A stretch of 64,000 nucleotides of DNA from Caulobacter sp. Root1455 (GTDB lineage Bacteria; Pseudomonadota; Alphaproteobacteria; Caulobacterales; Caulobacteraceae). The stretch covers positions 27,235 through 91,234 of the forward strand of contig NZ_LMFQ01000007.1 of assembly GCF_001426905.1 (NCBI RefSeq). The letters run 5' to 3'. The first letter of the stretch is position 1, and each line of letters starts with the position of its first letter. Shown here piece after piece: positions 40,778 to 60,678 of the stretch. Made by a program: the position numbers and the translations under genes. The notes beneath the pieces were generated by a model. The model was not told the DNA's origin and did not search any database. It worked only from the letters and a program-made list of their open reading frames with translations.

Positions 40778-40803
40778 GCTAAGTAAGTGATTTATGACTT
40801 AGC
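40778..40803. promoter_or_regulatory. Candidate purine-locus operator, site A
   Basis: GCTAAGT and ACTTAGC are perfect 7-bp inverted arms with 12 bases between (TAAGT-N12-ACTTA core). A second, nested dyad reads AAGT-N-AT-NN-AT-N-ACTT. The right half ATTTATGACTTA (40790-40801) recurs, with small changes, in three other purine-locus regulatory regions. It lies 150 bases upstream of the allantoate amidohydrolase start. It is a probable binding site of the local regulator, possibly the TetR protein. Confidence 0.6.
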
Positions 40804-40952
40804 TTCAGGCGCCGGCCGTTCGGTCTGGCGCTGGTCGAGGCAGATGCGCGGGAAGCCGTACCGCGTCGCCGATCATCGCGCGCTTTGCGGCTCGCCGATG
40901 TTAGGCAAAGCATGTCACGGATGGCGTGTACGGCAAAGGGGAGCCCGGCAGG

Positions 40953-42224
40953 GTGGCGGAAGCCTACGAGATCGGTGTTCGGGCCAAGACCCGCTGCGAC
41001 CTGATGGGCGTGGAGCCCTACAGCGAGGTCGACGGCATGCTGGTGCGCCGTTTCCTCACGCCGGCCCACGATGAAGCGCTCAAGACCCTGGCCTTCTGGA
41101 TGGAAGAGGCCGGCATGACCGCCCGCCGCGACCACGCCGGCAATCTGGTCGGCCGCTACGAGGGCGAGACGCCGAACGCCCCGGCCCTGCTGATCGGCTC
41201 GCACATCGACAGCGTCCGCAACGGCGGACGGTATGACGGCGCTCTGGGCGTGATGCTGGGGGTCGACGTGGTCGAGGCCCTGGCCCGCGCCGGCCGCCGC
41301 CTGCCCTTCGCGGTCGAGGTGATCGCGTTCGGCGACGAGGAAGGCTCGCGCTTCCCCGCCTCGATGACCTGCAGCCGCGCCGTGGCCGGGACCGTCAAGC
41401 CCAGTGTCATGGAGATGACCGACGGTGACGGCGTCAGCCTGGCCGAGGCTTTCGCGGCCTTCGCCCTGGACCCCACCCGCCTGGAGGAAGCCGCGCGCAA
41501 GCCGGGCGAGATCTTCGCCTTCCTGGAGGCCCATATCGAACAGGGCCCGGTGCTCGAGGCCGAGGGCCTGGCCCTGGGCGTGGTCACCGCCATCGCCGCC
41601 CAGAAGCGGCTGATGGTGCGGTTCACCGGCACGGCCGGCCACGCCGGCACCACGCCGATGAACCTGCGCAAGGATCCAGGCCCCGCCGCCGCCGAGGCGA
41701 TCCTGGCGTTGGAGCGGATCTGCTCGGGAGGTCAGGACGGCCTGGTCGGCACCGTGGGCCGGATCACCGCCCTGCCCGGCGCCTTCAACGTCATTCCCGG
41801 GGCGGTCGACTATTCGATGGACGTCCGGGCCGAGGTCGCCGCCACCCGCGACGCCGCCGTCGAGGCCGTCACCGCCGAGATCCAGGCCATCGCCGCCCGG
41901 CGCGGTCTGGAGGTCTCGATCACCCTGATGCAGGACCTGGCCGCCAGCCCCTGCGATCCGGGCCTGACCGCCCTGCTGGAGAAGGCCGTCGCCGCGACGG
42001 GCCAGGCCCCGCGCCGCCTGCCCAGCGGGGCCGGCCACGACGCCATGGTCATCGCCGACCTCTGCCCCACCGCCATGCTGTTCATCCGCTGCGAGGGCGG
42101 GATCAGCCACAATCCGCGCGAGGCCGTGACCGAGGCCGACTGCGCCCTGGCGGCGAAGGTTATGCTGGATTTCGTCGAGCGGCTGGCGGCGCAAAACCCT
42201 CGTCCTTCGACAAGCTCAGGATGA
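40953..42224 (+). CDS. Allantoate amidohydrolase (M20 family)
   Basis: This 423-residue metallohydrolase of the allantoate amidohydrolase/N-carbamoyl-amino-acid hydrolase group turns allantoate into (S)-ureidoglycine. Metal and substrate motifs are present: GSHIDSVRNGGRYDGALGV, FGDEEGSRFP, HIEQGPVLE, and SGAGHDAM near the C-terminus. The GTG at 40953 follows AGGGGAG; another GTG at 40926 is possible. It is the first gene of the purine operon. The final residues PRPSTSSG and the stop codon come from an R1 repeat, so the natural end has probably been replaced. Confidence 0.88.
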   Translation: MAEAYEIGVRAKTRCDLMGVEPYSEVDGMLVRRFLTPAHDEALKTLAFWMEEAGMTARRDHAGNLVGRYEGETPNAPALLIGSHIDSVRNGGRYDGALGVMLGVDVVEALARAGRRLPFAVEVIAFGDEEGSRFPASMTCSRAVAGTVKPSVMEMTDGDGVSLAEAFAAFALDPTRLEEAARKPGEIFAFLEAHIEQGPVLEAEGLALGVVTAIAAQKRLMVRFTGTAGHAGTTPMNLRKDPGPAAAEAILALERICSGGQDGLVGTVGRITALPGAFNVIPGAVDYSMDVRAEVAATRDAAVEAVTAEIQAIAARRGLEVSITLMQDLAASPCDPGLTALLEKAVAATGQAPRRLPSGAGHDAMVIADLCPTAMLFIRCEGGISHNPREAVTEADCALAAKVMLDFVERLAAQNPRPSTSSG

Positions 42225-42301
42225 GGGTTTTGAATGCGATCGCAGCCTGATCCACGACGTTCCCGTAGCCCTCATCCTGAGCTTGTCAAAGGACGAGGGC
42301 G
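42194..42301. repeat. Intergenic inverted repeat, family R1 (copy 3), inside an operon
   Basis: Arms CCCTCGTCCTTCGACAAGC and its near-complement (one change, CTTGTCAAAGG) flank a 48-base spacer. The left arm encodes the last residues and TGA of the allantoate amidohydrolase gene. Unlike the other copies, it separates two genes transcribed in the same direction, so it could attenuate or process the operon mRNA. Confidence 0.87.
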
Positions 42302-42331
42302 GCCCCTCGACCGCCCTATGAAGACCACCGC

Positions 42332-43555
42332 ATGACCCAGACTTTCGGCGAACTCGACCACCCCGCCCGCCTGCTGATGGGCCCCGGCCCGATCAACGTG
42401 CACCCCCGCGTGCTGCGGGCCATGTCGGTGCAGCTGCTGGGCCAGTTCGACCCGGAGTTCACCGGCTACATGAACGAGACCATGGCTCTGTACCGCCAGG
42501 TGTTCCAGACCCAGAACCGATGGACGTTCCTGATCGACGGCACCTCGCGCGCCGCGATCGAAGCGGCCCTGGTGTCGGTGCTGGCGCCGGGCGACGACGT
42601 GGTGGTGGTCAACGCCGGGCGCTTCGGCCTGCTGCTGTCGGAGATCGCCGAGCGCTGCGACGCCAAGGTCACCCTGGTCGAGGGCGAGTGGGGCAAGGTC
42701 GTCGATCCGCAGGCGGTGGAGGACGTGGTCAAGCGCGTGCGCCCGCGCCTGGTGGCCTGCGTGCACGGCGACACCTCCACCACCATGGCCCAGCCCATCG
42801 AGGCGATCGGCGAGATCTGCCGGCGTCATGACGCCCTGCTCTATGTCGACGCCACGGCGACGATCGGCGGCATGAGCGTGCCGGTCGACGCCTGGCAGGC
42901 CGACATCGTCACCGGCGGCCTGCAGAAGTGCCTGGGCGGTCCCTCGGGCTCGGGCCCGATCACGATCTCCGACCGCGCCGCCGCGCACATCAACGGCCGC
43001 AAGCACGTCGAGGCCGGCATCGCCACGGCGGGCGTCGTCAGCGGCGCCGGCCGCCGCATCGCCTCCAACTATTTCGACCTGGCGATGATCATGGACTATT
43101 GGTCCGACAAGCGCCTGAACCACCACACCGAGGCCGCCTCGATGCTGTACGCGGCCCGCGAATGCGCCCGGGTGGTGCTGGAGGAAGGACTGGAGGCCCG
43201 CTTCGCCCGCCACGCCCAGGCTGGGGCGGCGGTTGTCGCCGGGGTCGAGGCGATGGGCCTGAGCGTCTACGGCGACAAGGCCCACAAGATGACCAATGTC
43301 ACCGCCGTGCTGATCCCGCCCGGCGTCGATGGCGACCGGGTGCGCTCGCGCATGCGCACCGACTTCGAGATCGAGATCGGCACGGCGTTCGGACCGCTGG
43401 CGGGCAAGGTCTGGCGGATCGGGGCCATGGGCGTGAACGCGAAGAAGCACGCGGTGCTGACCACGCTGGCGGCGCTGGAGGCGGTGCTGCGCGGCGAGGG
43501 CTACGGCTTCACGGCCGGGGCCGGGGTGGACGCGGCGCTGGGGGTGTTCGCATGA
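42332..43555 (+). CDS. (S)-ureidoglycine-glyoxylate transaminase (PucG-like)
   Basis: This 407-residue PLP-dependent class V aminotransferase of the serine/alanine-glyoxylate type has features GPGPINVHPRVLRAM, DGTSRAAIEA and VVNAGRFG, and a PLP-lysine in TGGLQKCLGGPSG (Lys near 200). Among this family, PucG uses ureidoglycine and glyoxylate to make oxalurate and glycine. The position after allantoate amidohydrolase and before puuE supports that substrate over serine or alanine. Its stop overlaps the puuE start by 4 bases. Confidence 0.85.
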   Translation: MTQTFGELDHPARLLMGPGPINVHPRVLRAMSVQLLGQFDPEFTGYMNETMALYRQVFQTQNRWTFLIDGTSRAAIEAALVSVLAPGDDVVVVNAGRFGLLLSEIAERCDAKVTLVEGEWGKVVDPQAVEDVVKRVRPRLVACVHGDTSTTMAQPIEAIGEICRRHDALLYVDATATIGGMSVPVDAWQADIVTGGLQKCLGGPSGSGPITISDRAAAHINGRKHVEAGIATAGVVSGAGRRIASNYFDLAMIMDYWSDKRLNHHTEAASMLYAARECARVVLEEGLEARFARHAQAGAAVVAGVEAMGLSVYGDKAHKMTNVTAVLIPPGVDGDRVRSRMRTDFEIEIGTAFGPLAGKVWRIGAMGVNAKKHAVLTTLAALEAVLRGEGYGFTAGAGVDAALGVFA

Positions 43556-44469
43556 GCGACTACCCCCGCGACCTGATCGGCTACGGCGAGAACCCGCCCC
43601 ACGCCCGGTGGCCCAACGGCGCCCGCGTGGCGGTGCAGTTTGTCCTGAACTACGAGGAAGGCGCCGAGCGCAGCGTGCTGCACGGCGACCCGCAGGCCGA
43701 GCACTTCCTGTCGGAGATGGTCGGCGCCCAGCCGATCCCCGACGCCCGGCACATGTCGATGGAGAGCCTCTACGAATACGGTTCGCGGGCCGGCTTCTGG
43801 CGCATCCGACGATTGTTCGAGGAATTCGGCCTGCCGCTGACCGTCTTTGGCGTGGCCCAGGCCATGGCGCGCAACCCTGACGCCGTCGAGGCCATGCTCA
43901 AGTCCGGCTGGGAGATCGCCACCCACGGCTATCGCTGGATCGACTACCAGCACTTCCCCGAGGCGCTGGAGCGCGAGCACATCGCCCAGGCCATCGAGAT
44001 CCACGAGGCCCTGACCGGCGAGCGGCCGCTGGGCTGGTACCAGGGCCGCACCAGTCCCAACACCGCCCGGCTGATCGCCCAGGAAGGCGGCTTCGTCTAC
44101 GACGCCGACAGCTACGCCGACGACCTGCCCTATTGGGACGACCAGCACGGCCGGCCGCAGTTGATCGCGCCCTACACCCTGGACGCCAACGACATGCGCT
44201 TCGCCGCGCCCCAGGGCTTCAACAGCGGCGACCAGTTCTTCGCCTATCTGCGCGACAGCTTCGACGCCCTCTATCTGGAGGGCGAGACCGCCCCGAAGAT
44301 GATGAGCGTCGGCCTGCACTGCCGGATCGTCGGCAAGCCGGGCCGGATCATGGCCCTGCGGCGCTTCCTCAACCACATCACCGCCCGCGACAAGGTCTGG
44401 GTCGCCAAGCGCATCGACATCGCGCGGCACTGGATCGCGACCCACCCTTACAAGGCAGCGAACAAATGA
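43552..44469 (+). CDS. puuE: Allantoinase PuuE (polysaccharide-deacetylase type)
   Basis: This 305-residue enzyme hydrolyses (S)-allantoin to allantoate. PuuE is unrelated to the metal-dependent amidohydrolase allantoinase and has a polysaccharide-deacetylase fold. Typical segments are LNYEEGAERSVLHGD, GSRAGFWRIRRLF, WEIATHGYRWIDYQ, and GWYQGRTSPNTARL. Both neighbouring genes overlap it by 4 bases. The product fits between OHCU decarboxylase and allantoate amidohydrolase. Confidence 0.93.
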   Translation: MSDYPRDLIGYGENPPHARWPNGARVAVQFVLNYEEGAERSVLHGDPQAEHFLSEMVGAQPIPDARHMSMESLYEYGSRAGFWRIRRLFEEFGLPLTVFGVAQAMARNPDAVEAMLKSGWEIATHGYRWIDYQHFPEALEREHIAQAIEIHEALTGERPLGWYQGRTSPNTARLIAQEGGFVYDADSYADDLPYWDDQHGRPQLIAPYTLDANDMRFAAPQGFNSGDQFFAYLRDSFDALYLEGETAPKMMSVGLHCRIVGKPGRIMALRRFLNHITARDKVWVAKRIDIARHWIATHPYKAANK

Positions 44470-44987
44470 GCGCCCCGCCCCTGACCCTGTCCGACCTGAA
44501 CCGGATGAACCGCACCGGTTTCGCCACCACCCTGGGCTTCGCGTTCGAGCTGTCGCCGTGGGTGGTGCAGCGCGCCTATGACGCCGCGCCGTTCGACAGC
44601 GTCGAGGCCCTGCATGCCGCGACCATGACCGTTCTGGAGGCCGCCTCGGAGGACCAGCGCCTGGCCCTGATCCGCGCCCACCCGGAACTGGCCAGCAAGG
44701 CGGCGATCGACAAGACGTTGACCGCCGAGAGCAACGCCGAACAGGCCAGCGCGGGCCTGGACCGCCTGACCCAGGAAGAGTTCGACCGCTTCCACGCCCT
44801 GAACGCCGCCTATCGCGAGCGTTTCGGCTTTCCGTTCATCGTCGCGGTGCGGCTGAACGACAAGACCTCGATCCTGGCCGCCATGCAGGCGCGCCTGGAG
44901 AACGACAAGGCCGCCGAGGTCGCCGAAGCGATCAGGCAGATCGGCCTGATCTCGAAACTTCGACTGCAAGACGCGGTCACCGGCTGA
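44466..44987 (+). CDS. uraD: 2-oxo-4-hydroxy-4-carboxy-5-ureidoimidazoline decarboxylase
   Basis: This 173-residue OHCU decarboxylase produces (S)-allantoin from the HIU hydrolase product. The catalytic histidine is in RAHPELASKAAI, followed by the family's glutamate-rich stretch SAGLDRLTQEEFDRFHALN and FGFPFIVAVRLN. Length is standard for the stand-alone bacterial enzyme. The start overlaps puuE by 4 bases, and puuD begins one base after its stop. Confidence 0.95.
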   Translation: MSAPPLTLSDLNRMNRTGFATTLGFAFELSPWVVQRAYDAAPFDSVEALHAATMTVLEAASEDQRLALIRAHPELASKAAIDKTLTAESNAEQASAGLDRLTQEEFDRFHALNAAYRERFGFPFIVAVRLNDKTSILAAMQARLENDKAAEVAEAIRQIGLISKLRLQDAVTG

Positions 44988-44988
44988 G

Positions 44989-46170
44989 ATGGACTACGAC
45001 GTCACCACCTGGCTGAACCTTTCCCTGCGCTGGCTGCACGTGATCGCCGGCGTCGCCTGGATCGGCGCCTCGTTCTACTTCGTCTGGCTGGACAACAATC
45101 TGCGCGCTCCCGTTCCCGAAAAGGACGGCGTGAAGGGCGAGCTGTGGGCCGTGCACGGCGGCGGCTTCTACCATTCGCAGAAGTACATGACGGCCCCGGC
45201 CCACATGCCCGACCATCTGCACTGGTTCAAATGGGAGGCCTACACCACCTGGCTGTCGGGTTTCGCCCTGCTGATCGTGCTCTACTACGTCGGCGCGCCG
45301 GTCTATCTGATCGACGCCTCCAAGCATGCGTTCAGCCAGGCCGGCGCCGTCGCCACGGGCCTGGCCTTCATCCTGGGCGGCCTAGTCGTCTACGAGGGTT
45401 TGTGCCGCTCGCCGCTGGGCCAGAGACCGCGCCTGTTCGGCGTCGTCTGGTTCCTAGCCCTGACGGCCGCGACCTGGGCCCTGACCCAGCTCTTCACCGA
45501 CCGCGGAGCCTTCATCCACGTCGGCGCGATCATCGGCACGTGCATGGTCGGCAACGTGTTCCTGATCATCATCCCCAACCAGCGCAAGATCGTCGCCGAC
45601 ATGCTGGCCGGACGTCCCGTCGATCCGCGCCTGGGCGCGATGGGCAAGCAGCGCTCGGTCCACAACACCCACATGACTCTCCCGGTCATCTTCATCATGA
45701 TCAGCAACCACTATCCGGTGGTGACGGGCCATCACCTGGCCTGGCTGCTGCTGGCGATGATCAGCCTGGGCGGGGTGTCGATCCGCTACTTCTTCATTCT
45801 GCGCCACCACGGGATCATCAGGCCGGGCTTCATCTTCGCCGGGGTGATGATGGTGTTCTTCGTCAGCGTGATCGCCAGCCAGAAGCCCAAGGCCGAAACG
45901 GTCTCGGACGTGCCTTTCCCCGTCGCCCAGGCGATCGTCGAAAAGCACTGCGTGGCCTGTCACGGCGCCGTTCCGACCCACAAGGGCTTCACCGCCCCGC
46001 CCAACGGCGCGGCCTTCGACACGCCGGCGGGCATGGCGCGTTATGCGGGCAAGATCCGCGAACGCGCGGTGGACTCGACCAGCATGCCCCTTGGAAACGA
46101 GACTCATATTACCGATCACGAGCGGGCCCAGTTGGGCGCCTGGATCGAGGCAGGAGCAAAGACGCAGTGA
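44989..46170 (+). CDS. puuD: Membrane urate oxidase PuuD with cytochrome c domain
   Basis: This 393-residue integral membrane protein has about eight helices (residues 10-300) and a C-terminal cytochrome c domain with the haem site CVACH at 321-325 and a distal methionine in TSMPLGNE. PuuD oxidises urate to 5-hydroxyisourate and passes electrons to the respiratory chain, replacing soluble uricase. Features include LRWLHVIAGVAWIGASFYF and HNTHMTLPVIFIMISNHYP. The stop overlaps the GTG of the TetR gene. Confidence 0.94.
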   Translation: MDYDVTTWLNLSLRWLHVIAGVAWIGASFYFVWLDNNLRAPVPEKDGVKGELWAVHGGGFYHSQKYMTAPAHMPDHLHWFKWEAYTTWLSGFALLIVLYYVGAPVYLIDASKHAFSQAGAVATGLAFILGGLVVYEGLCRSPLGQRPRLFGVVWFLALTAATWALTQLFTDRGAFIHVGAIIGTCMVGNVFLIIIPNQRKIVADMLAGRPVDPRLGAMGKQRSVHNTHMTLPVIFIMISNHYPVVTGHHLAWLLLAMISLGGVSIRYFFILRHHGIIRPGFIFAGVMMVFFVSVIASQKPKAETVSDVPFPVAQAIVEKHCVACHGAVPTHKGFTAPPNGAAFDTPAGMARYAGKIRERAVDSTSMPLGNETHITDHERAQLGAWIEAGAKTQ

Positions 46171-46841
46171 CCACCTTGGCAGAGACGCCTTCGGCCGCAC
46201 CGACCGACGACGCCGCTCCGGCGCCCCGCAAGCGCAACGCCGAGCGGACGCGCAAGGCGATCCTGACCGCGGCGCTGCGGGAGTTCTCCCAGGCGGGCTA
46301 CGCCGGCGCGCGGATCGAGAAGATCGTCAAGGCCGCCAAGTGCAATATCCGCATGCTCTACCACTACTTCGGCGACAAGAAGGGCCTGTACCTGGCGGTG
46401 CTGGAGGCCGCCTACGAGGACCTGCGCGGCCGCGAGGCCGAGCTGGAGATCGACTTCGACCGGCCGCTGGAAGGCTTTCTCGCGCTGCAGCGGTTCACCT
46501 TCGAGTATTTCGAGAAGAACCCGCGCATCGACGGCCTGCTGCGCAACGAGAACCTGATCCAGGGCAAGTTCGTCTCCCAGTCGCGCAAGGTCACCGAGAC
46601 CGCGTTCCCGCTGCGCCGGACCATCGAGCGGCTGATCGACAGCGGCCAGAAGCAGGGGATCTTCCGCGACGGCTTGGACTGGGCCCAGATCTACGTGACC
46701 ATCGCGGCCATGAGCCGGTTCCACCTGGCCAACGGCTATTCGCTGTCGGTGACGCTGGACACCGACATGAGCAAGCCGGAGTGGCGGCGGGCGCGGCTGA
46801 CGCATGCGCTGGAGCTGCTGGAAGGCTATCTGCGGAAGTAG
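46167..46841 (+). CDS. TetR-family transcriptional regulator of the purine operon
   Basis: This 224-residue repressor has an N-terminal helix-turn-helix (TRKAILTAALREFSQAGYAG, then IVKAAKCNIRMLYHYFGDKK, about residues 25-70) and a helical ligand domain related to RutR-type proteins (NPRIDGLLRNENL). A GTG start overlaps the puuD stop (GTGA), with AGGAG upstream, so it is translated with the catabolic operon. It is the best candidate to bind the shared AT-rich elements described here, with urate or xanthine as a possible ligand; none of this is tested. Confidence 0.87.
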   Translation: MTTLAETPSAAPTDDAAPAPRKRNAERTRKAILTAALREFSQAGYAGARIEKIVKAAKCNIRMLYHYFGDKKGLYLAVLEAAYEDLRGREAELEIDFDRPLEGFLALQRFTFEYFEKNPRIDGLLRNENLIQGKFVSQSRKVTETAFPLRRTIERLIDSGQKQGIFRDGLDWAQIYVTIAAMSRFHLANGYSLSVTLDTDMSKPEWRRARLTHALELLEGYLRK

Positions 46842-46848
46842 GGGCCCA

Positions 46849-46985
46849 AGTCCTCCCCCTGTGGGGGAGGTGGTCGCGTAGCGACCGGAGGGGGGAGTTT
46901 TCCGGCGGTCGATCCGGGATGCGGCCGCCGCCCAAACTCCCCTCCCCGTCGGCTTCGCCGACACCCCTCCCACAGGGAGGGGGCT
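46849..46985. repeat. Intergenic inverted repeat, family R2 (copy 2)
   Basis: Arms TCCTCCCCCTGTGGGGGAGG and CCTCCCACAGGGAGG, with inner GTCGGCTTCGCCGAC, separate the convergent TetR and formamidase genes. The middle has TCGATCCGGGATGCGG as in copy 1. The left inner arm differs from the other copies (GGTCGCGTAGCGACC), with compensating bases. Confidence 0.88.
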
Positions 46986-47931
46986 AGAACAGAACCCCCT
47001 TCTCCAGCATCCCATGCACCCCCTTCTCGCCGTTGACCGTCTGGGTCACGCGGAAGTCCACCGCCAGCGAACAGAACTGGTAAGCCTGCACCCGGCTCAG
47101 CGACGAGCGCGAGACGATCAGGTCGATCATTCCCCGCAGGGCCTGTTTCATCGCCAGGTCCAGGTCCTCGTTGAAGCCCAGCGTCAGGTAGTGGGTCGGG
47201 CTCTCGGCGCTCGGCCAGGTGCGGACCCCGACGTGGGCGGCCTTGTGCAGCACGAAGGTGAAGGTCCCGGTCAGGCCCATTTCCAGGGCGTTGACGCAAA
47301 CCTCGCCGTCGCCCTGGCGGCCATGGCCGTCGCCGGCGCTGAAGTTCGCGCCCGGAACCCAGACCGGCAGGAACAGGGTCGAGCCCGCGACCAGCTCCTT
47401 GCAGTCCATGTTGCCGCCGTGCTCGCGCGGCTCGCGGCTGGACAGGCGGCCGTAGCGGGCCGGTGGGGCGACGCCGGTGGTGCCGAAGAACGGCCGCAGC
47501 GGCAGGGTCGGCCCCCAGGCCGGCTTGCAGGTTCCCGCCGCGGCGTCGACGGCGATGTGGCTGACATAGCGCTCGGGAAACTCGTCCGGCAGGGTCCCGG
47601 CCAACGGCCGGACAGCGCAATAGCCCCAAGTGTTGTTGGGCTCGATGGCCTCGATCCGCACCTCCAGGGTGTCGCCCGGCTCCGCGCCGGCGATCGCCAC
47701 CGGGCCGGTCAGGATGTGCGGCCCGATGCGCTCGAGCCGGGCGTCGTGGATCGCCCGCAGGGCGGGCGGGATGGCCAGTCCCGCGTCCGGGCCCGGCATG
47801 ACCTCGGGGCCGCCAGACACGCAGTCGATCACCACGGTGTCGCCGGGCGCGACCGTCAGCACCGGGTCGAAGGCGGCGTCGAAGATCCCGAAGCGCACCG
47901 TGTCCGGGGCCGAGGCCAGGTGATGCCGCAT
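46984..47931 (-). CDS. Acetamidase/formamidase family protein
   Basis: This 315-residue FmdA/AmdA-type amidase hydrolyses short amides to ammonia. Typical segments are VAPGDTVVIDCVSGGPEVMP, GPHILTGPVAI, GEVCVNALEMGLTGTF and CSLAVDFRVTQTVNG. No nearby formamide source is obvious, so a role on an amide from oxalurate or oxamate breakdown is an attractive but unproven idea. It is divergent from hpxX and convergent with the TetR gene across an R2 repeat. Confidence 0.87.
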   Translation of the reverse strand: MRHHLASAPDTVRFGIFDAAFDPVLTVAPGDTVVIDCVSGGPEVMPGPDAGLAIPPALRAIHDARLERIGPHILTGPVAIAGAEPGDTLEVRIEAIEPNNTWGYCAVRPLAGTLPDEFPERYVSHIAVDAAAGTCKPAWGPTLPLRPFFGTTGVAPPARYGRLSSREPREHGGNMDCKELVAGSTLFLPVWVPGANFSAGDGHGRQGDGEVCVNALEMGLTGTFTFVLHKAAHVGVRTWPSAESPTHYLTLGFNEDLDLAMKQALRGMIDLIVSRSSLSRVQAYQFCSLAVDFRVTQTVNGEKGVHGMLEKGVLF

Positions 47932-48118
47932 GAAGTAAGCCCTCTATTACCAGGGCTCAGTTGGCGCGCGGCGGCCGCCCCACCCTAGTCTCGACCGCCG
48001 CGCGGCGGGGCGAAGCGCGCCGGCGCCCATCCGACGGGCAGAGCGGCCGCCGGGATGGCGCGGACGTGGGCGTCGGCGCGTTCGAGGCCTATGGTGCTGG
48101 CGGCGACCGCACATCCCG

Positions 48119-48145
48119 GTTATGAAGAAATTTCTTACTTGTGGA
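48119..48145. promoter_or_regulatory. Candidate purine-locus operator, site D
   Basis: A perfect 12-bp palindrome AAGAAATTTCTT (48125-48136) continues into ACTTG, giving ATTTCTTACTTG, the variant of the half-site seen at sites A-C. It lies between the divergent formamidase and hpxX genes, 11 bases before the hpxX ATG, and could control both. A weaker match, GAAGTAAG, lies right at the formamidase start (47932-47940). Confidence 0.5.
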
Positions 48146-48155
48146 GCTCGTCCGC

Positions 48156-48374
48156 ATGGCGACCGATCCGGCGCTCGCAGCGTTCCTGGCCCTCGACGAC
48201 GACACGGTCGCCGCCTATGCGGACGCCCGGGCCGAAGCGCTGGGCCTGGCCCTGCCGCCGGAGACCCGGGCCGGCGTTGTCGAGAACCTGGCCCTGCTGC
48301 GCCGCCAGGCCGCGACGTTCATGGCCGCCCTCGACGACACCGCCCCGCCGGCGCCCGAAGTGTTCGAGCCATGA
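48156..48374 (+). CDS. hpxX: HpxX/AtzG-like small subunit (DUF4089)
   Basis: This 72-residue protein, nearly all helix, fits the DUF4089 family. AtzG and HpxX of this family pair with an amidase partner as a small stabilising subunit. Here the amidase gene follows with a 4-base overlap, the same order as in hpxXY of Klebsiella and atzGE of Pseudomonas. The ATG at 48156 follows GGAG. The hpx name is given because of the purine context rather than sequence alone. Confidence 0.75.
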   Translation: MATDPALAAFLALDDDTVAAYADARAEALGLALPPETRAGVVENLALLRRQAATFMAALDDTAPPAPEVFEP

Positions 48375-49768: not shown

Positions 49769-50166
49769 TCGTCAACGAACCCGACGTGCTGGCCGAGGTG
49801 ACCGCCGCGGTCGACGCCTACGAGACCGCGCTGATGACCAATGACGTCGAGGCGCTGGACGGCTTCTTCCGCGACGCGCCCGAAACCGTGCGCTACGGCG
49901 TGGCCGAGAACCTCTATGGATTCGAGGCGATCGCGGCCTTTCGAATCGGCCGCTCGGGCGGCTCGCCGCCGAGGTCGCGCCTAAGGACGGAAATCACCAC
50001 GTTTGGGCGGGATTTCGCGATCGCCAACGTCGAATTCCTCCGCGAAGGGGCAAAACGTCCCGGCCGCCAAAGCCAGGTTTGGATCCGCACCGAAACCGGT
50101 TGGAAAGTCGTCTCGGCCCACGTCTCGTTCCTGCAGGACGGCGCCGATCAACGCCTTGCGCCGTAA
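49765..50166 (+). CDS. hpxZ: HpxZ/AtzH-like protein (DUF3225)
   Basis: This 133-residue protein of the SnoaL-like/DUF3225 family has YETALMTNDVEALDGFFRD, then VRYGVAENLYGFEAI, and a C-terminal QVWIRTETGWKVVSAHVS. AtzH homologues are cone-fold enzymes or accessory factors found with AtzEG; HpxZ is the counterpart in purine loci. It overlaps hpxY by 4 bases and ends a three-gene unit. Site B follows 26 bases later. Confidence 0.78.
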   Translation: MIVNEPDVLAEVTAAVDAYETALMTNDVEALDGFFRDAPETVRYGVAENLYGFEAIAAFRIGRSGGSPPRSRLRTEITTFGRDFAIANVEFLREGAKRPGRQSQVWIRTETGWKVVSAHVSFLQDGADQRLAP

Positions 50167-50191
50167 GCGATCGACCGTCCGCGCCATGACA

Positions 50192-50215
50192 ATAAGTAAT
50201 AAATCCCTGACTTAT
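50192..50215. promoter_or_regulatory. Candidate purine-locus operator, site B
   Basis: ATAAGT and ACTTAT are 6-bp inverted arms with 12 bases between, the same TAAGT-N12-ACTTA layout as site A. On the minus strand it contains ATTTATTACTTA, matching the shared half-site. It lies about 170 bases upstream of the TonB-dependent receptor start. Confidence 0.6.
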
Positions 50216-52559: not shown

Positions 52560-52622
52560 TCTGAAACGACCCCGCCCGGCCTCACCGCCGGGCGGAACTC
52601 ACGAAGGATTGCCATCGTCCCG

Positions 52623-52652
52623 CCATGCTCCCGGTTCGCGCCGGGAGCATGG
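52623..52652 (+). terminator. Strong hairpin after the TonB receptor gene
   Basis: A perfect 12-bp stem CCATGCTCCCGG/CCGGGAGCATGG with loop TTCGCG is followed by TTCGTTTC. A weaker GC stem (CCGCCCGGC/GCCGGGCGG, 52572-52595) lies 28 bases before it. Together they would stop or slow transcription between the receptor and the nucleoside hydrolase genes. The U-run is imperfect. Confidence 0.6.
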
Positions 52653-52703
52653 TTCGTTTCGGAGGGCCTCCCCCTCCATCACACGATGAGTTAAATCCCT
52701 CGG

Positions 52704-53663
52704 ATGACGACCTCCAAAATCATCTTCGACACCGATCCCGGCATCGACGACGCCATGGCGCTTCTGTTCATCGAGGCCAGCCCCGCGCTCGACCTGGTGG
52801 CCGTGACCACGGTCTACGGCAACGCCGACATCGACATCACCACCCGCAACGCCCTCTACCTGAAGGACCGCTTCGGCCTGACGGCCCCGGTCTTCAAGGG
52901 CACGGACAAGCCGCTGACCCGGCCGCGCAATCCCTCGCCCACCTTCGTGCACGGCGAGAACGGCCTGGGCGACGTCGCGCTGACGGGCCTGGTCCCCGCC
53001 CGGCCGGAGGCCAAGCCGGCTCACCAGGCGATCATCGACCTGGCGCGCGAGAACCCCGGCGAGATCACCCTGGTCGCGGTCGGCCCGCTGACCAACCTGG
53101 CCCTGGCCCTGCGGGCCGATCCGGAAGTCGCCGCCCTGCTCAAGGCCGTGGTGATCATGGGCGGCGCGTTCGGCGTGGCCGGCAAGCCGGGCAACGTCAC
53201 GCCGGTGGCCGAGGCCAATATCTGGAACGATCCCGAGGCCGCCGACCTGGTGTTCACCGCCCCCTGGCATGTGACCGCCGTCAGCCTGGACGTCACCACC
53301 CAGGTGGTGATGACTCCCGCCTACATGGAAGCCCTGGAAGCCTCGGCCGGTCCGGCCGGCGCGTTCCTCAACGCCATTTCCAAGCCCTATGCGGCGTTCT
53401 ACGGCGGCCGCGACGGCATCGTCGGCTGCTGCGTGCACGACGCCGCGGCGGTGGCGTTCGTGATCGACCCGTCGCTGTTCGAGGTTCGCCCCGGCTCGAT
53501 CCGGGTGGTCACCGACGGCATCGCCCTGGGCCAGACCTGCCAGAAGGTCGAGGGCGAGCTGTTCGGGCCGTCGGCCTGGGACGACCAGCCCATCCAGGCG
53601 ATCACCGTGGGGGTGAAGGCCGAGGGGTTGTTGAAGTTGTACGCGGAGACGATGGGGGCTTAA
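52704..53663 (+). CDS. Nucleoside hydrolase (IunH family)
   Basis: This 319-residue Ca-dependent ribonucleoside hydrolase releases the base from purine or pyrimidine nucleosides. The signature DTDPGIDDAMAL is at about residues 9-20, a second Ca site in VVIMGGAF, and CCVHDAAAVAF near residue 240 holds the catalytic-region His-Asp. It probably feeds guanine, hypoxanthine or xanthine to the neighbouring enzymes. It is convergent with guaD across an R2 repeat. Confidence 0.92.
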   Translation: MTTSKIIFDTDPGIDDAMALLFIEASPALDLVAVTTVYGNADIDITTRNALYLKDRFGLTAPVFKGTDKPLTRPRNPSPTFVHGENGLGDVALTGLVPARPEAKPAHQAIIDLARENPGEITLVAVGPLTNLALALRADPEVAALLKAVVIMGGAFGVAGKPGNVTPVAEANIWNDPEAADLVFTAPWHVTAVSLDVTTQVVMTPAYMEALEASAGPAGAFLNAISKPYAAFYGGRDGIVGCCVHDAAAVAFVIDPSLFEVRPGSIRVVTDGIALGQTCQKVEGELFGPSAWDDQPIQAITVGVKAEGLLKLYAETMGA

Positions 53664-53669
53664 GGCAAA

Positions 53670-53808
53670 GGCCCTCCCCCTATGGGGGAGGCGATCGCGA
53701 AGCGATCGGTGGGGGGAGTTTCAGGACCGAATTTCCAAGACGCCGCCGCCTGCCGATCACTCCCCCCTCCGTCGGCTTCGCCGCCACCTCCCCCACAGGG
53801 GGGGGACC
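53670..53808. repeat. Intergenic inverted repeat, family R2 (copy 3)
   Basis: Arms CCTCCCCCTATGGGGGAGGC and CACCTCCCCCACAGGG, with inner GGCGATCGCGAAGCGATCGG and GTCGGCTTCGCCGCC, separate the convergent nucleoside hydrolase and guanine deaminase genes. The centre differs from copies 1 and 2. Confidence 0.87.
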
Positions 53809-53817
53809 TAAGAGGGC

Positions 53818-55104
53818 TCAGCGCCGATACCGCTCCACCCCGGCCACGTACGTCCGCTCCACCACGCGGTCGTCCCCCAGCACGGTCAGCGCGAACAGCC
53901 GGTCCTCGAGGCTCCGCGCCGCCGGCATCCGCCGGGCCAGCAGCGGGGTCGCCGCCAGGTCCAGCACCAGGAAGTCGGCGGTCTTGCCGCGCTCCAGACT
54001 GCCGATCTCGTCCTCCAGCCCCAGGGCCCGCGCCCCGCCCAGCGTCGCCAGGTACAGGGCGTGGAACGGGTCCAGCGCCTCGCCGCGCAGCTGGCCCACC
54101 TTGTAGGCCTCGCCCAGGGTGTGGAGGATCGAGAACGTCGTCCCCGCCCCGACGTCCGTGCCGATCCCCACCTTCACGCCGTGGGCGCAGGCGGTCTCCA
54201 GCGGAAACAGGCCCGAGCCCAGGAACAGGTTGGAGGTCGGGCAGAAGGCGATGGCCGAACCGGCATTGGCCAGCCGCTGGAACGCTTCACCCTGCAGGTG
54301 GACGCAGTGGGCGAAGACCGAGCGCTTCCCGACCAGGCCGAAGCGGTCATAGACGTCCAGATAGTCCTTCGCCTCGGGGAACAGCTTGGCGGTGTCGACG
54401 ATCTCGCGGATGTTCTCCGACAGGTGGGTCTGCATCCACACCGTCGGATGCTCGGCCAGCACCTCGCCCGCCATGGTCAGCTGTTCGTCGCTGCAGCTGA
54501 TCGCGAAGCGCGGGGTGACCGCATAGCCCAGCCGACCCTTGCCGTGCCAGTCGGCGATCAGGCTTTGCATGTCGGCGCGGCTGCTCTCGACCGTGTCGGT
54601 CAGGCCGGGCGGGGCGTTGCGGTCCATCAACGACTTGCCGGCGATCACCCGCATGTCGCGCTTCAGGGCCGCGGCGAACAGCGCCTCGACCGAGACCTTG
54701 TGCACCGAGCCGAACACCAGGGCGCTGGTCGTGCCGTTGCGCAGCAGCTCCTCGACGAAGAACTCGGCGGTCTCCTCGGCGTGGCCCTTGTCGGCGAACG
54801 CCGCCTCGGCCGGGAAGGTGTGGCGCTCCAGCCAGTCCAGCAGCTGCTCGCCGTGGGCGGCGATGATGTCGACCTGCGGGAAATGGATGTGGGTGTCGAC
54901 GAAGCCGGGGACGATCAGCTTGCCGCGCAGGTCTTCGATGGGCGTATCGCCCAGTTCGTCGGCCAGCTTGGCGTAGTCGCCGCAGGCGATGACCCGACCG
55001 TCCTCGACCAGCAGCAGGCCATCCTCGTGGAAGGCGTGCGCCTCCCCGTCCGTGGTGTTCGGGTCGTCCTCCAGGTGGAGGATCGACGCCCTATAGGCTT
55101 GCAA
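53818..55104 (-). CDS. guaD: Guanine deaminase
   Basis: This 428-residue amidohydrolase converts guanine to xanthine. Zinc ligands are in PGFVDTHIHFPQ (near 68-79), then MQTHLSEN, FAHCVHL and the Asp in GIGTDVGAG. The N-terminal AYRASILHLEDDP and the DGLLLVEDGRV segments fit guanine deaminase. A TTG start at 55104 is supported by AAGGA 8 bases upstream and overlaps the xdhC stop by 14 bases. It is the last gene of the hiuH-xdhABC-guaD unit. Confidence 0.92.
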   Translation of the reverse strand: MQAYRASILHLEDDPNTTDGEAHAFHEDGLLLVEDGRVIACGDYAKLADELGDTPIEDLRGKLIVPGFVDTHIHFPQVDIIAAHGEQLLDWLERHTFPAEAAFADKGHAEETAEFFVEELLRNGTTSALVFGSVHKVSVEALFAAALKRDMRVIAGKSLMDRNAPPGLTDTVESSRADMQSLIADWHGKGRLGYAVTPRFAISCSDEQLTMAGEVLAEHPTVWMQTHLSENIREIVDTAKLFPEAKDYLDVYDRFGLVGKRSVFAHCVHLQGEAFQRLANAGSAIAFCPTSNLFLGSGLFPLETACAHGVKVGIGTDVGAGTTFSILHTLGEAYKVGQLRGEALDPFHALYLATLGGARALGLEDEIGSLERGKTADFLVLDLAATPLLARRMPAARSLEDRLFALTVLGDDRVVERTYVAGVERYRR

Positions 55105-56101
55105 GCTGGAGATCCTTCGTACGTTCGCGGCGGGCGGCCTCGAGCCGCATCAGCAGGTCGGCGGCCACCGAGACGGCGATCACCTCGGGAGCCTTGTTCT
55201 TCAGGTGCGGCAGGCCGATCGGGCAGGTGACGCGGGACACCGTCCCGTCGCCGAAGCCGTCCTTGCGCAGCCGGCTCAGGAACCGTGCCTTCTTGGTGTC
55301 CGATCCGATCAGGCCCAGATAGCCGAACGCTCCGCCGGCCAGGGCCGACGAGGTCAGGGCGTAGTCCAGATTATGGTCGTGGGTCATGACCAGGATATAG
55401 GCGTCGGGCCCCGCGCCCATGGCGGCGGCGGCCAGCTCGGCGGCCGTCCCGACCGTCACGCCGGGAAATTCGGCGGTCTCGGGGCGGGTGTCGTACCAGG
55501 CCAGGCGGAACGGCAGCGGCTCCAGGGCCCGGGCCACGGCCTGGCCCACATGGCCGGCCCCGAACAGCAGCACCGGCGGGCGCGGCAGGTCCTGCGGCTC
55601 GACCAGCACGTCGCCCAGCGTCGGCCGCGCCCCGCGCGTCGTCGCCGGCTCGCCCGCCAGGGTGATCGTCGCCCCCTCGGGACTAGACGCCGCGACCGGA
55701 GCGACGGTCTTGGTCAGGGCGCCGGGGTTGAAGCGGGTGCGGACCTCGAAGGGCTGGTCGGCGTCCAGGCGGCGCGCGGCGTCGGTCAGCCAGTCGACGG
55801 CGGTCTTGTCCAGGCGCTCGATCAGCAGCCGCACGCGGCCGCCGCAGCATTGAGCCAGCAGCGGGCCCAGCGGATAGTCCTGCAGGGCGAAGTGGACCTC
55901 CGTCAGCAGCATGCGCCGCGCCTGGTCGGCGACCTGGTGCTCCAGATTGCCGCCGCCGATCGTGCCGGCCTGACCGTCGGCCCAGACCACCATCTTGGTC
56001 CCGGCGTCGCGCGGCGCCGAGCCCTCGGTGGCGAGGATCGTGACCAGGGCGACGGGCTGATCCTCGGCCAGACGCGCGAGGGATTGGCGGGCCCAGTTCA
56101 T
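55091..56101 (-). CDS. xdhC: Xanthine dehydrogenase accessory protein XdhC
   Basis: This 336-residue protein binds molybdenum cofactor and helps insert its sulphurated form into XdhB. Family segments are LVTILATEGSAPRDAGTKMV, GTIGGGNLEHQV, and a C-terminal Rossmann part (LLFGAGHVGQAVARAL, LGLIGSDTKKARF, CPIGLP). It lies 42 bases downstream of xdhB and overlaps guaD. Its presence supports an active molybdoenzyme. Confidence 0.93.
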   Translation of the reverse strand: MNWARQSLARLAEDQPVALVTILATEGSAPRDAGTKMVVWADGQAGTIGGGNLEHQVADQARRMLLTEVHFALQDYPLGPLLAQCCGGRVRLLIERLDKTAVDWLTDAARRLDADQPFEVRTRFNPGALTKTVAPVAASSPEGATITLAGEPATTRGARPTLGDVLVEPQDLPRPPVLLFGAGHVGQAVARALEPLPFRLAWYDTRPETAEFPGVTVGTAAELAAAAMGAGPDAYILVMTHDHNLDYALTSSALAGGAFGYLGLIGSDTKKARFLSRLRKDGFGDGTVSRVTCPIGLPHLKNKAPEVIAVSVAADLLMRLEAARRERTKDLQLASL

Positions 56102-56143
56102 GCGCCCTCTCCCATTGGGAGAGGGAGGATGTAGGTCGCCGCC

Positions 56144-58483
56144 CTAACCAAGACCGCCCCTCCGCTTGACGTCCTCGACCGCCATCAGGATCCGCTCGGG
56201 CGTCGCCGGCGCGTCCAGGTTCGGGAACACCTTGTGGTCGGCCACCGAGGCCACCGCCCGGTTCACCGCCGACAGCACCGACAAGGCCAGCATCAGCGGC
56301 GGCTCGCCCACGGCCTTGGAGCGATGGACCGTCTCCTCGACGTTGCGACCCGGCTCCCACAGGGCGATGTTCATCACCGCCGGCCGGTCGCCGCAGGTGG
56401 GAATCTTGTAGGTCGAGGGGGCGTGGGTCAGCAGGCGGCCGTCGGCGCTGAACACCAGCTCCTCGGTGGTCAGCCAGCCCATGCCCTGGATGAAACCGCC
56501 CTCGATCTGGCCCAGGTCGATGGCGGGGTTCAGCGAGCGGCCGGCGTCGTGCAGGATGTCGGCCCGGGTGACCTTCATCTCGCCGGTCAGGGTGTCGATC
56601 AGCACCTCGCTGCAGGCCGCGCCGTAGGCGAAATAGTAGAACGGCCGGCCGGTGTGGGTGGCGCGGTCGTAGTGAATCTTGGGCGTGGCGTAGAAGCCGG
56701 TGGACGACAGCGACACCCGGGCCAGGTGCGCCTGGCGGCACAGGACCTCGAACGGGATCAGCGTCTCCCCGGCCCGCAGGCCTTGCGGCGTGAATTCGAC
56801 GGCGCTCTTCAGGCAGCCCCATTTCATGGCCGCGAACTCGACCAGCCGCGTCTTGATCGTGTTGGCCGCCTTCAGCGCCGCCATCCCGTTCAGGTCCGTG
56901 CCCGACGAGGCCGCCGTGGCCGAGGTGTTGGGCACCTTGTCGGTGACGGTCGAGGTCACCTTCACGCGCGACACGTCGACCTTGAAGGCCTCGGCGACGA
57001 TCTGGGCGACCTTGACGAACAGCCCCTGCCCCATCTCGGTGCCGCCGTGGTTCAGCAGGATCGAGCCGTCGGCATAGAGGTGGATCAGCGCCCCGGCCTG
57101 GTTCAGGTGGGTGGTGGTGAACGAGATCCCGAACTTCACCGGCGTCAGGGCCAGGCCCTTCTTCAGCACCGGGCTCTTGGCGTTGTAGGCGTCGATCTCG
57201 CGCTGGCGGTCCTCGTAGTCGCAGGACGCCGCCAGTTCGGCCAGCAGCTGGGGCGCGACATTGTCCTCGACCGTCTGGTGATAGGGCGTCAGGTTGCGCC
57301 CCTCGCCGCCATAGAGATTTCGCCGGCGCACCTCCAGCGGATCCAGCCCCGCGGCCTGGGCGACCGCGTCCATCACCCGCTCGATCGCCGCCATGCCCTG
57401 CGGACCGCCGAACCCCCGGAACGCGGTGTTCGACACCGTGTGGGTCTTGAAGCGGTGCGAGACGATCTCGACGGCCGGCAGGAAGTAGCAGTTGTCGACG
57501 TGGAACATCGCCCGGTCGTTGATGGCCATCGACAGGTCGGTGGTGGAACCGCAGCGCGAGGCCAGCTCGAGCGCCAGCCCCCTCAACCGGCCCTCGTCGT
57601 CGAAGCCGACGTCGTAGGCGATCTCGAAGTCATGCCGCTTGCCGGTCATGACCATGTCCTCGTCGCGATCGGGCCGGGCCTTGGCCGGGCGGCCGGTCTT
57701 GACCGCCACGAGGGCGGCGGCGGCGGCGAACAGCGAGGCCTGGGTCTCCTTGCCGCCGAACCCGCCGCCCATTCGGCGGACCTCGACGGTCACCGAGGTG
57801 TGCGGCACGTCCAGCACCCGGGCGACCAGGTGCTGGACCTCGCTGGGATGTTGGGTCGACGACCAGACGTGGAGGTCGCCGCCCTCGCCCGGCGTGGCCA
57901 GGGCGACCTGGCCCTCGAGATAGAAATGGTCCTGACCGCCGATGGCGAACACGCCTCGCAGCCGCCGGGGCGAGGCGGCCAGGGCGGCGGCCGCGTCGCC
58001 GCGCGCCATGCGCTGGCTGGCCTCGATCTTCAGATCGGCGTCACGGGCCTGGGCGATGGTGATCGCGGCGGGCAGATCCTCGTACTCGACCACGGCCTTG
58101 GCGGCGGCGGCGCGGGCGGCGGCGATCGAGGTGGCGGCCACCGCGAACAGGCTCTGGCCGACGCAGATCACCTCGCCGTCGGCGAACAACCTGTCGTCGT
58201 GGATCACCGGGCTGACGTCGTTCTCGCCGGGAATGTCCTGGGCGGTCAGCACCGTGACCACGCCGGGCGAGGCGCGCACGGCCGCCAGGTCCATCGACAC
58301 GATCCGGGCGTGGGCCCGCGTGCTCATGCCCAGGTGGACGTGGAGCATGCCGACCGGTTCGGGAATGTCATCGACATAGATCGCCGCGCCCGAGACGTGG
58401 CGCAGGGCGCTGTCGTGCGGCAGCGCGGCGTGAACGCCCTGGAAGACGACCGGTTCGACCAGCTTGGCGCCGGAATCAGCCAT
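56144..58483 (-). CDS. xdhB: Xanthine dehydrogenase molybdenum-binding subunit XdhB
   Basis: This 779-residue molybdopterin subunit oxidises hypoxanthine or xanthine to urate. Cofactor-binding motifs are visible: MGGGFGGKETQ, AFRGFGGPQGM, NHGGTEMGQGL and the catalytic Glu in AVGEPPLMLAL. The N-terminal LRHVSGAAIYVDDI is typical. The reading frame is intact. It overlaps xdhA by 8 bases, and the two-subunit split (A plus B) follows the Rhodobacter arrangement. Confidence 0.96.
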   Translation of the reverse strand: MADSGAKLVEPVVFQGVHAALPHDSALRHVSGAAIYVDDIPEPVGMLHVHLGMSTRAHARIVSMDLAAVRASPGVVTVLTAQDIPGENDVSPVIHDDRLFADGEVICVGQSLFAVAATSIAAARAAAAKAVVEYEDLPAAITIAQARDADLKIEASQRMARGDAAAALAASPRRLRGVFAIGGQDHFYLEGQVALATPGEGGDLHVWSSTQHPSEVQHLVARVLDVPHTSVTVEVRRMGGGFGGKETQASLFAAAAALVAVKTGRPAKARPDRDEDMVMTGKRHDFEIAYDVGFDDEGRLRGLALELASRCGSTTDLSMAINDRAMFHVDNCYFLPAVEIVSHRFKTHTVSNTAFRGFGGPQGMAAIERVMDAVAQAAGLDPLEVRRRNLYGGEGRNLTPYHQTVEDNVAPQLLAELAASCDYEDRQREIDAYNAKSPVLKKGLALTPVKFGISFTTTHLNQAGALIHLYADGSILLNHGGTEMGQGLFVKVAQIVAEAFKVDVSRVKVTSTVTDKVPNTSATAASSGTDLNGMAALKAANTIKTRLVEFAAMKWGCLKSAVEFTPQGLRAGETLIPFEVLCRQAHLARVSLSSTGFYATPKIHYDRATHTGRPFYYFAYGAACSEVLIDTLTGEMKVTRADILHDAGRSLNPAIDLGQIEGGFIQGMGWLTTEELVFSADGRLLTHAPSTYKIPTCGDRPAVMNIALWEPGRNVEETVHRSKAVGEPPLMLALSVLSAVNRAVASVADHKVFPNLDAPATPERILMAVEDVKRRGGLG

Positions 58484-59951
58484 GGGCCGCCCCCAAGGCG
58501 TACGTCTGCACGCGGGTTTCGAGATCCGGCCGGGCGGACTCGATGAACACCTTGCGCAGCATGTTGCCGGCCGTCAGGGCGCGATAGGCGGCCGAGGCGC
58601 GGGCGTCGGTCAGGGGCCTGAAGTCGCCGGTCAGGGCCTCGACGGCGGCGTGGATCGTGGCCCGGTTCCACGGCTGGCCGACCAGGGCGGCCTCGCAGGC
58701 GACGGCCCGCTTCGGCGTGCCGGCCATGCCGCCATAGGCGATGCGGGCGCTGGTCACGACCTCATCCTGGATCTGGATGTTGAACGCCCCGCAGACCGCC
58801 GAAATGTCCTGGTCGAAGCGCTTGGACAGTTTGAAGACCTTGAACATCGCGCCGGGTCGCGGATCGGGAACCCGCACCGCTTCGACGAATTCACCCGGCC
58901 GGCGGTCCTGCTTGCCATAGGCGATGAAGAAGTCCTCCAGCGGCAGGGTTCGCCGCTCGTTCCAGTGGTGCAGCACCAGCTCCGCGCCCAGCGCGATCAG
59001 GGCCGGCGGCATGTCGCCGATCGGCGAGCCGTTGGCGATGTTGCCGCCGATCGTGCCGCTGTTGCGCACCTGGGTCGAACCCAGCCGGCGCATCATCGCG
59101 CCCAGGTCGGGATAGAGTTCGCCCAGCGTTTCCAGGGCGTCGGCATAGCGCACGCCGGCGCCGATGCGCAGCCCACCGTCCTCGCGGGCGACGGTCTTGA
59201 GTTCCTCCACCCGACCGATGTCGATCAGGGTCTTGAGCGGCTTGCGAAGCTTGGTGACCCACAGGCCGATGTCGGTGGCCCCGGCCACGACCACGGCGTC
59301 CGGATAGGCCGCGTAGGTCTTGGCCAGCTCGTCCACGCTCAAAGGCGCGAACCAGCGCCGGGTCAGGCCGGCGATCGGGTCGGCGTAGTCCAGGCTCAGG
59401 GCCTCGTCGCGCTTCAATCCCGCCAGCTTGTCGGCCACGTCCGGAGCCGCCTCGGGAATGATGGTCTCGGCCGCCGCGATGATCGGGCCATAGCCGGTGC
59501 AGCGGCACAGGTTGCCCGCCAGCACCTCGTCGACCGGCGCGTCGGCGCCCTTGGCCGCGACCGCCCGTCCGTACAGCGACATGACGATGCCCGGCGTGCA
59601 GAAGCCGCATTGCGAGCCGTGGTGCTCGACCATCGCCGCCTGCACCGGATGCGGCTCGTCCTTGGCGCCATTCTTTCTGGCGACGCCCTCGACGGTGATC
59701 ACCGCCTTGCCGTCCAGCATCGGCACGAACTGGATGCAGCTGTTGACCGCCCGCCAGGAAACTTTCCGATCGGCCGCCTCGCCCTCCAGTTCGCCGACCA
59801 GCACCGTGCACGACCCGCAGTCGCCCTCGGCGCAGCCTTCCTTGGTCCCGGTGCGCCGCAGGTCGCCGCGCAGATGCTCCAGCAGCGTGCGGGTGGGGTC
59901 GACGCCCTCGGCCTCGACCACCTCGCCGTTCAGCAGGAAGCGCACCGCCAT
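58476..59951 (-). CDS. xdhA: Xanthine dehydrogenase FAD/iron-sulphur subunit XdhA
   Basis: This 491-residue subunit carries two 2Fe-2S clusters and FAD. The plant-type cluster cysteines are at 40, 45 and 48 (EGCAEGDCGSC) plus NSCIQF; the second cluster is in QCGFCTPG and LCRCTGYGP. The FAD domain has VVAGATDIGLWVTK and GTIGGNIANGSPIGDMP. It passes electrons from the molybdenum site of XdhB to NAD. It starts one base after the hiuH stop. Confidence 0.96.
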   Translation of the reverse strand: MAVRFLLNGEVVEAEGVDPTRTLLEHLRGDLRRTGTKEGCAEGDCGSCTVLVGELEGEAADRKVSWRAVNSCIQFVPMLDGKAVITVEGVARKNGAKDEPHPVQAAMVEHHGSQCGFCTPGIVMSLYGRAVAAKGADAPVDEVLAGNLCRCTGYGPIIAAAETIIPEAAPDVADKLAGLKRDEALSLDYADPIAGLTRRWFAPLSVDELAKTYAAYPDAVVVAGATDIGLWVTKLRKPLKTLIDIGRVEELKTVAREDGGLRIGAGVRYADALETLGELYPDLGAMMRRLGSTQVRNSGTIGGNIANGSPIGDMPPALIALGAELVLHHWNERRTLPLEDFFIAYGKQDRRPGEFVEAVRVPDPRPGAMFKVFKLSKRFDQDISAVCGAFNIQIQDEVVTSARIAYGGMAGTPKRAVACEAALVGQPWNRATIHAAVEALTGDFRPLTDARASAAYRALTAGNMLRKVFIESARPDLETRVQTYALGAAHG

Positions 59952-59952
59952 C

Positions 59953-60300
59953 TCAGCTGCCCCGGTAGGTGGAATAGCCGAACGGCGAGACCAGCAGCGG
60001 GACGTGGTGGTGCTGGGTCGGATCGGCCACCGCGAAATCGATCACCACCACGTCCAGGAACGGCGGATCGCTGACGACCGCGCCCGAAGTCTTGAAATAG
60101 TCGGCCACCGCGAACTCCAGGCGATAGCCGCCGACCGCCAGATCCTCGCCCGCGACCAGCCGCGCCCGGCCGTCGGCGTCGGTGCGGGTTTCGCTCAGCA
60201 GGCTGACCTCTCCCCCGCGCCGGGCGAAAACCCGCACGACGACCTCCGCCGCCGGGCGGCCGGCCGCCGTGTCGAGGATGTGGGTGGTCAGGCCGCTCAT
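59953..60300 (-). CDS. hiuH: 5-hydroxyisourate hydrolase
   Basis: This 115-residue transthyretin-related HIU hydrolase acts on the PuuD product. It begins MSGLTTHILDTAAGRPA and ends with the diagnostic YRGS. Central histidine and arginine residues (HHHVPLLVSPFGYSTYRGS end) form the active site at the tetramer channel. It is the first gene of the xdhABC-guaD operon, with site C about 170 bases upstream. Confidence 0.95.
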   Translation of the reverse strand: MSGLTTHILDTAAGRPAAEVVVRVFARRGGEVSLLSETRTDADGRARLVAGEDLAVGGYRLEFAVADYFKTSGAVVSDPPFLDVVVIDFAVADPTQHHHVPLLVSPFGYSTYRGS

Positions 60301-60678
60301 GCGTTCGTGGTTCCTTGCTCGCCGTCGCCGTGCGCCATTCTAGACCCCCGGGCCTTTCGAGCGATGCTGAAACCGCCTCGCCCGCAAGTCCAGCCCGGAT
60401 GCTCGCCCGCCTCGCCAAGACGGCGAACCGCCTTGCGTGACGGCGTCGGGCGCCCGCCGGATGGGCGTTATATAAGTCTTTTATTACTTAGCGAGCCACC
60501 CGCGATCGCTCGCGCGGCGACCCGAACCGTAAAAAACATGCTTTGACCCTGGGTAAGGTTGGAAAAGCCGCGCCAACACCGGTAGCTAGGCCCTGACGGA
60601 TCGCGACACCGGGCGCCCAGGGGCCCGCACCAGACGATCCGCGCCGCCTTACCTTGCGCAGTCACCGAGGAACGACCG
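60301..60678. other. Divergent regulatory region between hiuH and maeB
   Basis: This is a gap of about 380 bases with no credible gene. It contains the purine-locus element site C (60471-60491) and an AT-rich block around GTTATATAAGTCTTTTATT that could hold the hiuH promoter. The maeB side has TTTGACCCTGGG near 60541, a possible -35, but no clear -10. Confidence 0.55.
60471..60491. promoter_or_regulatory. Candidate purine-locus operator, site C
   Basis: TAAGT and ACTTA (60473-60477, 60486-60490) are inverted arms with 8 bases between. When aligned on TTTTATTACTTA (60479-60490), the flanking bases also match the nested dyad of site A (AAGTCTTTTATTACTT against AAGT-N8-ACTT). It lies in front of the hiuH-xdhABC-guaD operon. 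Confidence 0.55.

Follow-up and report, generated by a model that had tools for sequence, protein, structure and literature searches.

Five copies of a 22-bp palindrome-like site head the purine operons of a 64-kb stretch of Caulobacter sp. Root1455 DNA (64,000 nucleotides, hereafter the window), and a TetR-family protein encoded in the same locus is the likely repressor acting there, to be released by a purine intermediate; judged from sequence comparison, I put the probability of this reading at roughly 0.8. It is the best reading of the position and rarity of the sites, their conservation, their placement at operon heads and their co-occurrence with the TetR. TetR subunits would occupy both yAAGTAAk and the half that mirrors it, preventing transcription of genes for TonB receptor uptake, for xanthine and guanine oxidation, for urate and allantoin breakdown and for an oxalurate-type amidase branch, until a purine intermediate released the protein. 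For the ligand, the content of the regulon leads me to guess urate or xanthine as the most likely. The TetR gene itself belongs to an operon that such a site heads, and the protein would therefore limit its own level.

NCBIfam and Pfam models identify the locus as one of purine breakdown (Table 1). The small ORF before atzE I take to be AtzG-like. By position alone, site C could serve either the HIUH-xdh operon or the facing malic enzyme gene. The urate oxidase (44989-46170) belongs to the membrane type (Urate_ox_N) and matches cytochrome c weakly at its C-terminal end. Between the TetR and amidase-like genes (46842-46983) there is a G+C-rich stretch of inverted repeats, which may represent a terminator or else an intergenic repeat.

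Table 1. Candidate operator sites and gene groups of the purine locus (window coordinates).
Feature	Position	Strand	Sequence or basis	Remark
Site A	40780..40801	.	TAAGTAAG-TGATTT-ATGACTTA	before allC operon
Site E	47932..47953	.	GAAGTAAG-CCCTCT-ATTACCAG	directly before amidase-like gene; weakest, 11.0 bits
Site D	48120..48141	.	TTATGAAG-AAATTT-CTTACTTG	15 bp before small ORF preceding atzE
Site B	50193..50214	.	TAAGTAAT-AAATCC-CTGACTTA	before TonB-dependent receptor gene
Site C	60469..60490	.	TATATAAG-TCTTTT-ATTACTTA	between HIUH-xdh operon and malic enzyme gene
Site A group: allantoate amidohydrolase, aminotransferase, PuuE, UraD, urate oxidase, then TetR	40926..46170 (TetR to 46841)	+	NCBIfam/Pfam	
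TetR-family regulator	46167..46841	+	TetR_N, TetR_C_29	likely binds the sites
Amidase/formamidase-like gene	46984..47931	-	FmdA model, 78.6 bits, far below cut-off of 500	behind site E
Site D group: small ORF, AtzE-family amidohydrolase, HpxZ	48156..50166	+	family models for AtzE, HpxZ	
Site B group: TonB-dependent receptor, nucleoside hydrolase	50382..53663	+	family models	
Site C group: HIU hydrolase, XdhA, XdhB, XdhC, guanine deaminase	53818..60300	-	family models	

The original prediction had listed four matches to a core, WTTTMTKACTTR, and an exact pattern scan of the window returned all four on the same strands and at the same coordinates. This compares with 0.01 matches expected, and none of 100 dinucleotide shuffles reached four. 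The prediction had named equal matches elsewhere in the genome as evidence that would speak against it; in the whole 5.08-Mb genome the same four exact matches are the only ones, and a reversed control pattern has no exact match. The core was written from these four sites, and the counts therefore serve as a check of position and rarity, independent evidence being sought in conservation among relatives.

Relatives show a single 22-bp dyad, yAAGTAAk-N6-mTKACTTr. Its commonest half-site is yAAGTAAk, and one half deviates in site C (TATATAA) and in site D (nTATGAA). The spacing proposed earlier, TAAGT-N12-ACTTA, holds for sites A and B, and site D does contain the 12-bp palindrome AAGAAATTTCTT, but the TAAGT-N8-ACTTA proposed for site C is an accident of register and was ruled out: many relatives carry TATATAAT-N6-ATTACTTA there without the inner TAAGT, so that the conserved site is 60469-60490. 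Site E, a fifth and weaker copy, had been missed.

A matrix built from sites A, B and D of the window alone found site A in every one of the 26 named loci with enough sequence before allC. With a later matrix, which includes sites from relatives, some of them among the loci scored, a site was found before allC in 30/30 fetched loci (out of 39 genomes with a match) and before HIUH-xdh in 30/30 (out of 45 genomes with a match, 37 genomes having both HIUH and TetR); the fetched and named loci have many genomes in common, and the two sets are not independent. Within 300 bp upstream in the named loci, scores of at least 20 bits were reached before allC (26/26), the small ORF preceding atzE (18/19) and the TonB receptor gene (7/7), and at 10 bits site D is present in 19/19 loci. 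Site B occurs in all seven named loci with the same gene order, and also before the receptor gene in a rearranged locus (L144). Over the same distance and at 20 bits, the internal genes gave no match: aminotransferase 0/28, uox 0/33, TetR 0/33, HpxZ 0/19, nucleoside hydrolase 0/17, guanine deaminase 0/12, XdhC 0/8 and PuuE 0/30, the last with one match at 10 bits. The counts upstream of AtzE (19-20/20) reflect site D reached across the small ORF within the 300 bp, and those upstream of Fmd (21/22) are mostly site D viewed from the other side. Column-shuffled matrices, applied to the first 10 loci of each gene, or 7 in the case of the receptor, reached 20 bits in 0.45-0.93% of sited upstream regions, whereas the observed rate for allC, atzG and the receptor was 95-100%. 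They reached 10 bits in about 9-10%, and the 10-bit level alone is therefore weak.

Sites A, C and D stand out as conserved footprints, much better kept than the sequence around them: mean column conservation is 0.916 at site A, compared with 0.523 elsewhere in the region (n = 27), 0.912 compared with 0.615 at site C (n = 30) and 0.913 compared with 0.678 at site D. For site E the difference is 0.835 against 0.684 (n = 21), a level that 10% of equal-length stretches attain, and 20 of the 21 aligned loci, that of the window included, retain the form sAAGTAAG-N6-mTTAC. The upstream scan and the conservation alignments were made without L050-L052, and L053-L074, which match 31-47% over part of the TetR, were left out of the study. 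Lack of conservation in orthologous loci, the other finding that the original prediction had said would count against it, was thus not what the relatives showed. Its proposal of a purine operator is supported as a candidate by the operon-head placement, the three footprints and the absence of 20-bit sites before the internal genes tested.

The position of the sites relative to the genes bears on the direction of control. For sites A, B and C the distance to the annotated start downstream is 125-170 bp, which would also suit an activator, or a protein that represses at some sites and activates at others, as does RutR of E. coli, which activates carAB and represses rut (PMC10891134, from an excerpt). 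Sites D and E, by contrast, are placed just before annotated start codons, as suits blocking, and activation, at all or some of the sites, appears unlikely beside the repression proposed here.

The TetR gene closes the operon headed by site A, its GTG start (46167) overlapping the TGA stop of uox (46168-46170), and it directly follows uox in 33/33 loci (L017-L049). Close relatives that carry this TetR are mostly named Caulobacter, and C. vibrioides DSM 9893 (L042) is one strain in which the locus is present. The protein scores above the family cut-offs for PF00440 (45.4 bits, cut-off 24) and PF17938 (100.4 bits, cut-off 26.2), and matches 17 NCBIfam models, in each case below the cut-off. A structure model (pLDDT 88.4) gave TetR folds at the top of a fold search, and the matches listed are TetR-type regulators; the best of them lie within 1 Z of each other, and the search therefore singles out no ligand.

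Among 61 Caulobacter genomes, the motif was found in 38 of the 39 with a TetR orthologue (E below 1e-100) and in 1 of the 22 without, the reversed control at one mismatch giving 16/39 and 4/22, respectively. The genome with the TetR and no motif (G214) has no allC match either, and the only match in the one with the motif and no TetR (G111) is on one strand and has one mismatch. In a family sample of 199 genomes, allowing up to one mismatch, the motif occurs in 29/29 Caulobacter genomes with the orthologue and in 1/10 without. Outside Caulobacter 13/160 genomes match, among them one with a TetR relative at 66-67% identity (G032); the reversed control is no rarer in those genomes, and these matches therefore say little. 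Of the TetR-less genomes in the genus sample, 21 of 22 have no allC match and the other has one at 38%; since they also lack the allC operon, the co-occurrence is confounded and is not proof. Sharper evidence, less confounded by allC loss, comes from the eight TetR-less genomes that keep HIUH (58-63% identity): in 8/8, no site of 6 bits or more was found within 2.9-4.0 kb around HIUH. Sites before orthologous pathway genes, missing where the regulator is missing, form the pattern by which comparative genomics would recognise a regulon, and the genomes compared here present it.

The same confounding leaves room for a true shared operator bound by a regulator encoded elsewhere, with the TetR acting on something else, and the genome of the window does encode a second TetR, 38% identical to the first. 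In the genus sample this paralogue was reported for the window's genome and for none of the other 38 with an orthologue, weaker 32% matches in G220 excepted, and so cannot explain sites that they share. When the genes of the sited region (36-64 kb) were scanned, moreover, the TetR was the only regulator recognised. In more distant relatives (TetR at 60-67% identity) the TetR gene does not close an allC operon, yet related sites stay near it: before the TetR gene in L258 (17.1 bits) and L257 (8.7 bits), and in L259 (60% identity) as a 27.1-bit site beside the TetR, between a xanthine-permease operon and an 8-oxoguanine deaminase gene. A regulator encoded elsewhere is, on these grounds, quite improbable, and the TetR, which the original prediction had put forward as the partner, is by operon position and co-occurrence the best-supported candidate binder. 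A chance origin of the four sites, as a pattern selected from AT-rich spacers, has next to no likelihood, for although the core was written from the sites and the 22-mer at up to three mismatches has 25 strand matches in the genome against 16 for the reversed control, chance is at odds with the four exact cores against none, the conservation and operon-head placement in relatives and the failure of shuffled matrices at 20 bits.

The regulon had been described as local, and this needs widening, since unlinked sites occur before rutB in the window's clade and before an AMP nucleosidase gene in other Caulobacter. The genome scans list 16 off-locus places in the window's genome, and the surroundings of five were read (C1:581009, C12:271417, C22:209837, C21:371607 and C1:176204). 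The second of these was chosen for follow-up because of its genes: it is a loose match before rutB (G000:C12:271417-271438), where RutB, RutC, RutD and RutA pass curated cut-offs. A site before rutB (24.2-28.3 bits) is found in 10 of the 48 genus genomes with rutB (loci L261-L270), and all 10, comprising 10/10 of the window's clade, have the TetR with at least 90% identity and lack RutR, counted here as a match at E 1e-30 or better (such matches score 324-366 bits, all below the cut-off of 368). The site is absent in 15/15 genomes with both TetR and RutR, in 12/12 without the TetR, and in the other 11 that have the TetR but no RutR, so that absence of RutR alone does not bring the site. The rutB site has a conservation of 0.973 in the 10 genomes, compared with 0.647 upstream of it and 0.767 downstream of it, with 10% of equal-length stretches equalling it when the conserved coding part is counted.

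The ten genomes look like one clade, and the site was therefore probably gained once. In this clade the same TetR would also control the uracil-breakdown rut operon, and I lean towards the view that the purine TetR replaced a lost RutR there, through gain of an operator before rutB. This would place both halves of nucleobase breakdown, purine and uracil, under one regulator, which I likewise consider somewhat more plausible than the contrary, and would give a clear example from nature of a TetR regulator taking the place of another.

RutR itself, the uracil-responsive TetR-family regulator of E. coli, was ruled out as the regulator of the window's sites, as no RutR match at E 1e-30 was found in the genome of the window. 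The purine TetR fails the RutR model TIGR03613 (46.1 bits, cut-off 368), and the two proteins are both present in many Caulobacter. The uracil-contacting residues of RutR given in the excerpt of PMC10891134, W77, W167 and Q171, align with Leu, Ala and Arg of the purine TetR, in an alignment with Caulobacter RutR-like proteins where the E. coli numbering was placed by the W-x3-Q spacing; the uracil contacts thus seem not to be preserved. XdhR of Streptomyces coelicolor resembles the purine TetR by description, as a TetR-family regulator of xanthine dehydrogenase genes, but differs in governing the genes of one enzyme, in an actinobacterium (PMC7057948, as far as the excerpt goes), and in being described as a (p)ppGpp target in the title of a reference cited there. 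HucR of Deinococcus, a urate-released repressor of the uricase gene, follows the same logic as that proposed here; it is however of the MarR family, and its only site, between uricase and hucR, contrasts with the set of operons proposed here (PMC5487221, likewise an excerpt). DIP1788 of Corynebacterium diphtheriae (PDB 3npi) is 26% identical to the purine TetR, and the title of the entry names no function. A literature search gave, among the matches listed, no paper on this regulon by title; the TetR-family regulators covered in the excerpt of PMC5343134 include RutR and none for purines. The analysis thus offers a likely function and target set for a TetR that falls below every NCBIfam cut-off, a candidate urate or xanthine sensor, and the prediction that the TonB receptor encoded at 50382 takes up a purine-related compound.

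The AMP nucleosidase loci, 30 of which were fetched out of 58 genomes with a match, have a full site in six cases (L182-L186 and L207), a half-site in 14 and none in 10, the window's genome being among the last; L203 was left out of one comparison. The gene for the second TetR is located at G000:C10:7506-8105 (L147), near a TonB receptor-like gene. At C1:581009-581030 (L142 5010-5031), a site-like stretch stands upstream of a TonB receptor gene, after which comes an agmatine deiminase-like gene; on the other flank of the stretch is a gene of the opposite strand. The stretch is kept in seven aligned relatives, in one of them with two changes, as is much of the flanking sequence.
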